NCBI GenBank assembly: GCA_905479705.1
Contig: CAJQNP010000174.1
Location: 1 to 34,961, forward strand
Direction: 5' to 3'
Source of the DNA: an uncultured Gammaproteobacteria bacterium
GTDB taxonomy: Bacteria; Pseudomonadota; Gammaproteobacteria; UBA9214
Length of the DNA: 34,961 bases
The first letter of the stretch is position 1. Each line of letters starts with the position of its first letter. Positions 5,891-15,682 of this stretch are shown here, piece after piece. The notes beneath the pieces are model-generated. The model had not been told where the DNA came from. It made no database searches and saw nothing but the letters and a program-made list of their open reading frames with translations. The translations under genes were made by a program, and so were the position numbers.

Positions 5891-6985
<1,095 letters not shown>

Positions 6986-7049: not shown

Positions 7050-7113
7050 CCGTTTGACGGTCAGGCAGCCCATGCCCGTGACGCTACACCGCCCAGAACA
7101 AGAGTCTCCCCGG

Positions 7114-8058
7114 ATGATCAATACGCTGATAACCGCCTGTCGCCTTGTCGCCAACCAGCTGGCCCTGCTGGTGGTGCTGGGTGCCGTGCTGGCGTATCTG
7201 CATCCGCCCCTGTTTCTGCTGTTCAAGTCGAGCTTCCTGTGGTTTTTTGCAGCCACCATGTTTGCCATGGGCATTGTGCTGGATACCGCGGAGTTGCAGA
7301 AAACGCTGCGCAGGCCGTGGCAGATCGGTATCGGTGTGATGACGCAGTACACGGTTATGCCGCTGTTCGGTTTTTTGCTGGCCTTGCTCAGCCCGCTGTC
7401 TCCCGAGCTCAAGCTGGGTTTTATCATCGTTGCCTGTGCACCGGGGGCGATGGCCAGCAATGTCATGGTGTATCTCGCCGGTGGTGCCGTGGCCTTCTCG
7501 GTGGCCATGACCACACTGGCGACGTTCCTGTCACCGGTGCTGACACCCGTGCTGGTGGAAGTCCTCGGGGGTGAACTCCTGCATATCCCCTTCTGGCCCA
7601 TGATGGAGACCATCATCCTCACCGTGGTGGTGCCGCTGGCTGCCGGCATGCTGTTACGCAAGCAGCTGGGCCGTCACCTCGAACTGGCGCGCGCGGTATC
7701 ACCGGCCGTTGCGGCCATCGCCATTATTATCATCTGCAGCTATGCGGTGGCTGCCAACCAGGCACGTATTGCCACGGTGGGCGGCTGGGTGATTGCGCTG
7801 GTGGTGTTGCTGAATGCGCTGGGCTATCTCTCAGGCTGGTGGCTGGGTCGCCTGTACGGCTTTGACGGCCAGCATCGCCTCACCCTGGCCATCGAGATCG
7901 GCATGCAGAATGCAGGTCTCGGTGTGGCCCTGGCACTGGCCCATTTTTCTCCGCAGACCGCCCTGCCGGGCGCCCTGTTTGCCGTGTGGTGCATCCTCAC
8001 GGCGACCGGTGCCAGCGCCTGGTTGCGGCGTCACGGCGCTGTCATGCAACAAGCTTAA
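7114..8058 (+). CDS. Bile acid:sodium symporter (BASS) family transporter
   Basis: MINTLITACRLVANQLALLVVLGAVLAYL...; FAMGIVLDTAELQKTLRRPW, VACAPGAMASNVMVYLAGG, IEIGMQNAGLGVALA; multiple hydrophobic TM segments. Start chosen at 7114 rather than 7054. Confidence 0.85.
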   Translation: MINTLITACRLVANQLALLVVLGAVLAYLHPPLFLLFKSSFLWFFAATMFAMGIVLDTAELQKTLRRPWQIGIGVMTQYTVMPLFGFLLALLSPLSPELKLGFIIVACAPGAMASNVMVYLAGGAVAFSVAMTTLATFLSPVLTPVLVEVLGGELLHIPFWPMMETIILTVVVPLAAGMLLRKQLGRHLELARAVSPAVAAIAIIIICSYAVAANQARIATVGGWVIALVVLLNALGYLSGWWLGRLYGFDGQHRLTLAIEIGMQNAGLGVALALAHFSPQTALPGALFAVWCILTATGASAWLRRHGAVMQQA

Positions 8059-8168: not shown

Positions 8169-8195
8169 TAAAGTTCCGCAAGTGGACGCCGATAG
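8169..8195 (+). promoter_or_regulatory. Sigma-28 (FliA)-type promoter TAAAGTTC-N11-GCCGATAG
   Basis: Matches the enterobacterial FliA consensus TAAAGTTT-N11-GCCGATAA at 14 of 16 defined positions with exact 11-nt spacing; located in an intergenic region. Confidence 0.7.
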
Positions 8196-8201
8196 CCCAG
8201 T

Positions 8202-8354
8202 AGACAGTGATGCAGCAGAACACTGTGACATGGCTCCCTCAGCAAGCAGGAATCGCGGAACCATCTCAGAGACGATTTTGTCATGCACTGCAGTACTAAA
8301 GGCTCCTCCGACGCTGAAAAGCGTTTTCAACCCGCCGCAAGGCGGGTTTTTTTT
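8202..8354 (+). ncRNA. Candidate sigma-28-dependent small RNA (about 150 nt; TSS estimated)
   Basis: Starts just downstream of the FliA-type promoter. Contains hairpins ACAGTG(8204-8209)/CACTGT(8221-8226), ACGCT-GAAA-AGCGT and CCCGCC-GCAA-GGCGGG + T8; C/U-rich CTCCCTC (8234-8240) and CTCCTCC (8303-8309) motifs. Confidence 0.5.
8331..8354 (+). terminator. Rho-independent terminator
   Basis: CCCGCC-GCAA-GGCGGG (GNRA tetraloop, 6-bp GC stem) followed by TTTTTTTT. Confidence 0.9.
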
Positions 8355-8367
8355 GCCTGCAGTCGGG

Positions 8368-9856
<1,489 letters not shown>

Positions 9857-15142: not shown

Positions 15143-15682
15143 ATGGCTATCCTCGAAATTCTGCATTTTCCCGATCCGCGTTTGCGCAACGTTGCACATT
15201 CCGTTGAAACGGTCGGTGATGATACCCGGCAGTTTCTCGATGACATGCTGGATACCATGTACACAGCGCCCGGCATTGGTCTTGCGGCGACCCAGGTCAA
15301 TGACCCGAGGCGGATCGTTGTCATTGATGTATCGGATGCAAAAGACCAACCTTTATGCCTGATAAACCCTGAAATACTGGAACTTGACGGGGTTGAGGAG
15401 ATGGAGGAGGGCTGCCTTTCAGTGCCCGGATTCTTTGAAAAGGTAAAACGCGCCGACCGCGTGCGCGTGCGTGCGCTGGATCGCAACGGCGAGGCCTTTG
15501 AAATGCAGGTCGAGGGTTTACTGGCGGTCTGCATCCAGCATGAAATAGATCACCTCGATGGCAAGCTGTTCGTCGATTATTTGTCGCAGCTGAAACGCAC
15601 GCGTATTCGCAACAAGCTGGAGAAAGAGCAGCGCCAGAATGCACCGGCAGCCAGTGGCGAGGCGAGCCAGCGCGTCATCTGA
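15143..15682 (+). CDS. def: Peptide deformylase
   Basis: [57 protein letters not shown]. Confidence 0.96.

Follow-up and report, generated by a model that had tools for sequence, protein, structure and literature searches.

A candidate FliA-dependent small RNA with a putative anti-Shine-Dalgarno seed, conserved in gammaproteobacteria that include genomes without detectable flagellin or FlhA

The window analysed here is a stretch of 34,961 nucleotides from an uncultured gammaproteobacterium of the lineage UBA9214 (genome G000). It carries hemB, encoding porphobilinogen synthase, at 5891-6931 on the minus strand, a BASS/SBF-family transporter gene at 7054-8058 on the plus strand and hemF, encoding coproporphyrinogen III oxidase, at 8368-9402 on the minus strand. 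Both haem genes were assigned by protein family models (NF006762, 525.8 bits for hemB; NF003727, 466 bits for hemF) and by synteny. For the intergenic element studied here (8169-8354), hemB is the conserved upstream neighbour and hemF the convergent downstream neighbour. The transporter gene lies immediately upstream, codirectional with the element and ending about 110 nt before it, and goes undetected at some homologous loci.

The element begins with a match to the FliA (sigma-28) promoter, TAAAGTTC-N11-GCCGATAG, at 8169-8195 on the plus strand. The -35 box occupies 8169-8176, with its TAAAG core at 8169-8173, and the -10 box 8188-8195. Only two of the 16 consensus bases are mismatched, those at the end of each half. 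Allowing up to three mismatches brings up one further site in the window, where 0.12 would be expected; it lies at 15329-15355 on the minus strand, inside a peptide deformylase gene, and was taken as chance. Among non-redundant homologous loci, 48 of 56 carry an upstream match to at least 11 of the 16 consensus positions, compared with a mean of 3.25 and a maximum of 10 for 300 permuted consensus motifs, a control for the way in which a site-based alignment favours the boxes. Over 45 aligned loci the -35 core holds 1.81 bits per position and the first seven positions of the -10 box 1.54, against 0.21 in the 30 nt upstream flank and 0.27 in the 11-nt spacer; this alignment was anchored on a recognisable FliA site, which favours the figures for the boxes. 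Both boxes and their 11-nt spacing are thus conserved above spacer and flanks, as expected of a FliA-type promoter. Four loci (L094, L135, L139 and L141) had no good FliA site within the scanned range and one (L017/L080) has a 12-nt spacer. The first-pass annotation had proposed a FliA promoter at this position, departing from consensus only in those two last bases, and had made its case dependent on box conservation in relatives; promoter and conservation both withstood the comparison, the boxes standing at 1.81 and 1.54 bits per position over surroundings at 0.2-0.3.

From the usual distance to a -10 box, a transcript of about 150 nt is predicted at 8201-8354 (plus strand); a conserved AGACAGTGA begins near 8202, close to this start. 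The 5' domain of the RNA forms helix 1 (8223-8271), with arms at about 8223-8236 and 8257-8271. Further downstream an invariant CUCCUCC (8303-8309), a putative anti-Shine-Dalgarno seed, directly precedes helix 2, a further conserved hairpin closed by a GAAA loop (GACGCU-GAAA-AGCGUU, 8310-8325) just 5' of the terminator. The intrinsic terminator, AACCCGCC-GCAA-GGCGGGTT followed by T8, occupies 8329-8354 and has an 8-bp stem and a GCAA loop, bearing out the GNRA-loop hairpin and T8 tail noted earlier. Its end is 14 nt short of the hemF stop. The observation of a FliA promoter followed by a terminated RNA is thus confirmed, beyond what chance would produce.

Compensatory changes in relatives support the helices. 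They were found in nine of the 11 pairs of helix 1 and five of the eight pairs of the terminator stem, and the lower stem of helix 2 changes from GACGC/GCGT to GGCGC/GCGC in distant members. The stem conservation that the first reading had named as a check is seen across the family. On the covariation score the helices outdid every one of 500 shuffles and every slid control. Taken by itself, the RNA has an unexceptional fold energy (z -1.48). CUCCUCC does not vary among 37 sequences and hardly varies in a more diverse set of 36, and its predicted probability of being unpaired is 0.73-0.99, compared with a mean of 0.44.

We also considered coding potential. No open reading frame crossing 8169-8354 matched a Pfam protein family, and no conserved frame was found among relatives of the RNA, in agreement with the earlier view that no coding sequence separates promoter and terminator. 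A 29-codon ATG frame, MQQNTVTWLPQQAGIAEPSQRRFCHALQY, does lie near the 5' end in the window, and L081 has a similar one of 27 codons. Its start and frame are unconserved in other clade-A members, however, and the distance from the -10 box to CUCCUCC varies irrespective of codons. That the RNA encodes a small protein is the least probable of the alternatives that we weighed.

Homologues are widespread. A DNA search (blastn) of 57 genomes found them in 16 other genomes of the family, and when 84,980 species genomes were scanned for CTCCTCCGACGCYGAAARGCG, 36 stretches came up. Most of the assemblies concerned are gammaproteobacterial, Thiohalobacter and Thiogranum among them, and one is the isolate Thiohalobacter thiocyanaticus Hrh1. 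Searching with a covariance model built on the 3' module detected the RNA in 17 of the 23 genomes of the order, and in all eight of good quality. A broader model gave hits (E<=1.5e-6) in 26 of the 369 class genomes, spread over 13 gammaproteobacterial families; calibration of the models was rough and most genomes are metagenome assemblies. Weaker second matches to the model, possible paralogues, occur at G089:C128:126-198, G105:C23:81992-82063, G144:C1:2685057-2685116 and G258:C18:13975-14034. There are also long forms, in which the FliA site lies 230-265 nt before CUCCUCC (L062, L078, L087, L130-L133, L136, L142, L143, L145 and L152); these have in common an additional element on the 5' side, around GGAACTCCTGAAG or a similar sequence.

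The RNA lies outside known Rfam families, as the first reading had supposed. Rfam 15 gave no gathering-threshold match in the window and nothing at E<=0.01 in 18 homologous loci, and relaxed thresholds brought nothing above cut-off. The window RNA scored 21.9 bits against RF02278 (gathering threshold 50) and 17 bits against the anti-hemB family RF02837 (threshold 49.5), though it too neighbours hemB. A search of the literature available to us found no description of the RNA at 8169-8354.

Gene order at the homologous loci bears on two alternatives. The order hemB, RNA, hemF is widely kept, whether or not a BASS gene is detected between hemB and the RNA; the RNA has this position in the 17 carrier genomes of the order, and nearly all stretches from the species-genome scan adjoin hemB, hemF or both. 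The region might simply belong to the BASS mRNA, as its 3' UTR or a tail produced by read-through, with a fortuitous FliA match; the orientation and proximity of that gene would allow this. Yet at L085 and L092, for instance, the RNA and its FliA site persist with hemB as upstream neighbour and no detected BASS homologue, and read-through is therefore disfavoured; both boxes, moreover, are retained a constant distance apart although the sequence between them diverges. We regard this explanation as highly improbable, and the RNA as independent of BASS read-through, in line with its first description. An RNA that terminates so close to the hemF stop, in a widely kept hemB-RNA-hemF arrangement, could instead be a cis-antisense regulator of convergent hemF, possibly linking FliA to haem synthesis. 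The RNA stops short of hemF, however, and in several relatives (L068, L069, L076, L088 and L093) hemF is 1.4-3.2 kb away, leaving this role very unlikely.

Another possibility is that the RNA acts mainly as a sponge titrating CsrA/RsmA and not by base pairing. One or two exact CANGGANG motifs occur in each of the 12 clade-B relatives tested, where 0.06 per RNA would be expected. By contrast, the motif is present in none of the 15 clade-A RNAs, the clade of the window, and in none of the 11 long-form RNAs; in both groups GGA counts are at expectation, and conservation within the family is highest at CUCCUCC, not at GGA. We consider a sponge very unlikely, and for the window's clade it is disfavoured. 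The clade-B motifs, of CsrA/RsmA type, sit in the 5' domain of the RNA (L065-L070, L075, L076, L085, L086, L088 and L128), and it is possible that these RNAs have a dual function.

Next, the distribution of fliA was compared with that of the RNA. The genome of the window encodes a full-length FliA (TIGR02479, 260.6 bits; cut-off 189.6), so the proposal did not fall for want of the sigma factor. In the class sample, fliA is present in all 26 RNA-bearing genomes and in 208 of all 369 (hypergeometric p about 1.6e-7, ignoring relatedness, which inflates such simple probabilities). Counted by family, all 13 RNA-bearing families have fliA (p about 6e-4). Two drafts, G018 and G022 (93% and 64% complete), have the RNA and no fliA above cut-off. 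In the window's genome fliA lies at L103:4336-5064 (minus strand), and in G013 at L319:3800-4525 (plus strand); in both it adjoins a gene for a ParA/MinD-type ATPase, with a GGDEF-EAL gene nearby.

Flagellar markers were distributed differently. In the window's genome (98% complete), neither the flagellin N-terminal domain (PF00669, E<=1e-8) nor FlhA (PF00771, E<=1e-20) drew a match. The same two markers went unmatched in G013, a single-contig chromosome rated 93% complete which has both fliA and the RNA. Since both are absent from these two genomes, a working flagellum is very unlikely in either, as judged from two markers, short of a full inventory. Most of the family likewise has no detectable flagellin or FlhA: within it both occur only in G002, G004, G005 and G008, and G016 has FlhA alone. 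The first-pass annotation had described a candidate isolated FliA-driven sRNA of the flagellar regulon. The comparisons support a non-coding RNA that stands alone, with a terminator of its own and a FliA promoter in front; the flagellar-regulon label is not supported, because this genome and most of its family are without detectable flagellin and FlhA and the host does not appear to be a flagella builder. On these comparisons the RNA appears to be a FliA-regulon RNA and, in the window's genome, not a flagellar one.

A FliA-dependent RNA might nonetheless fine-tune flagellar assembly, as is known for sigma-28 sRNAs of E. coli and Campylobacter. The FliA promoter would fit such a role, and some members of the order (for example G004 and G008) combine flagellin, FlhA and the RNA. 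Against this, the window's genome and most relatives keep fliA and the RNA without detectable flagellin or FlhA, and no flagellar gene was recognised among the candidate targets described below. We consider a flagellar tuner unlikely, though less so than the other alternatives.

Sequence comparison shows the RNA family, its promoter, structure and synteny, its co-occurrence with fliA and the absence of detectable flagellin and FlhA. Our preferred reading, to which we assign a probability of roughly 0.7, is that 8169-8354 is an independent gene for a FliA-dependent, trans-acting sRNA, an anti-Shine-Dalgarno repressor within a FliA regulon that outlived the flagellum in the window's organism. 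RNA polymerase with FliA would transcribe the RNA of about 150 nt, and its own intrinsic terminator would end the transcript. The 5' helix probably serves to stabilise the RNA or to present it, and the 3' half would act as the conserved module, made up of the unpaired CUCCUCC, the GAAA hairpin and the terminator with its U tail. CUCCUCC is complementary to strong ribosome-binding sites (GGAGGAG); most likely it pairs in trans with sites of this type, so that targeted mRNAs would be translated less while FliA is active. Transcription, the anti-Shine-Dalgarno action, the targets and any involvement of Hfq are inferred.

To look for candidate targets, four genomes were searched for GGAGGAG-N3-9-ATG. 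Each had 31-66 sites, compared with 19-25 for the reversed pattern; this is a single pattern built on a short 7-nt seed, and the sites were inspected in the window's genome and in G013. SCP2-like genes, glnA and ftsZ recurred, each in two or three genomes, and G013 has two PII genes with such sites (all gene names assigned by eye). The candidates formed no coherent pathway.

If FliA was retained without a flagellum, other genes might have come under its control. In the window's own genome, FliA-like sites were seen upstream of genes for a PleD-like diguanylate cyclase, a type IV pilin and a PilG-like response regulator (the PilG label by eye). We surveyed recurrence across eight family members in which flagellin went undetected, this genome included. 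The pattern TMAAG-N14-GCCGWTA occurred 63 times, against 45 for the reversed-pattern control; this excess is modest, so single sites prove little and only recurrent ones were used. In five of the eight genomes a DUF1249 gene is preceded, at 69-74 nt, by a site TCAAG-N14-GCCGATA, with diverged spacers (L318, L285, L286, L288 and L291). PleD-like diguanylate cyclase genes have an upstream site in four genomes (L031, L269, L284 and L314), and recurrent sites also precede pilin-type (L035 and L307), PilT/PilU-type ATPase (L273 and L304) and CRP-like genes; the PilG-like gene is at L037. A further FliA-like site common to all eight genomes (TCAAGTG..GCGCCGATA) was discarded as conserved coding sequence of the opposite strand, its variation tracking the reading frame by eye. 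The recurrent sites suggest, as a hypothesis, a rewired FliA regulon. We tentatively propose, at somewhat less than even odds, that FliA was kept after loss of the flagellum, that its regulon was redirected towards surface behaviour, with type IV pili, c-di-GMP and cAMP/CRP signalling, and that the anti-Shine-Dalgarno sRNA is its most widely conserved output. If so, sigma-28 would possess an arm of post-transcriptional repression lasting beyond its role in flagella.

Precedents exist for FliA outside a purely flagellar setting. Legionella oakridgensis is non-flagellated and keeps FliA together with FlgM (PMC5655016), resembling the window's organism in retaining fliA without a flagellar regulon; no FliA-driven sRNA of this RNA family was seen described there. 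In Bdellovibrio, FliA controls pilins (PMC5430801) and its regulon includes three sRNAs with FliA promoters (PMC3627812), making it a similarly broad regulator that drives both sRNAs and pilin genes. The Bdellovibrio regulon, however, includes flagella (PMC3627812), and the parallel with its sRNAs is drawn by description.

In architecture the RNA resembles the betaproteobacterial double-hairpin "toxic" sRNAs of RF02278, which have been likened to the Neisseria NmsRs (PMC5688073): both have an unpaired CU-rich anti-RBS stretch, a hairpin and a terminator. RF02278 RNAs are short (57-92 nt) and multi-copy (PMC5688073), whereas the window RNA has an additional 5' domain and a FliA promoter. A separate short RNA-like element, made up of CTCCTCCACCTCC, a hairpin and a terminator, occurs at L101:1332-1393 (minus strand; contig C116 of the window's genome) and at L102 near 4963 (minus strand) in G013. 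It follows a sigma-70-like promoter just upstream of apparent ribosomal protein genes (rplM-rpsI) and scores 26.6 bits to RF02278, below cut-off.

Sigma-28-dependent sRNAs themselves are known from E. coli (UhpU, MotR, FliX and FlgO; eLife 2023, PMC10578931) and Campylobacter (CJnc170/FlmR, PMC11187230; CjNC1/CjNC4, PMC4626219). In these cited studies of flagellated model bacteria they are mostly interpreted as adjusting the assembly of flagella. The window RNA appears to share with both sets its dependence on FliA. The Campylobacter sRNAs are tied to flagellar assembly in a distant bacterial class and were compared by description (PMC11187230, PMC4626219). Those of E. coli derive from UTRs and act on the flagella of a flagellated host (PMC10578931), whereas the window RNA has an intergenic gene to itself, complete with promoter and terminator, and is also found in genomes without detectable flagellin or FlhA; this distinction is drawn from descriptions and the absent Rfam match. 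A free-standing FliA-type sRNA present in at least 13 gammaproteobacterial families, always with fliA in the class sample, would offer a handle on the role of FliA in bacteria that keep it after loss of the flagellum.
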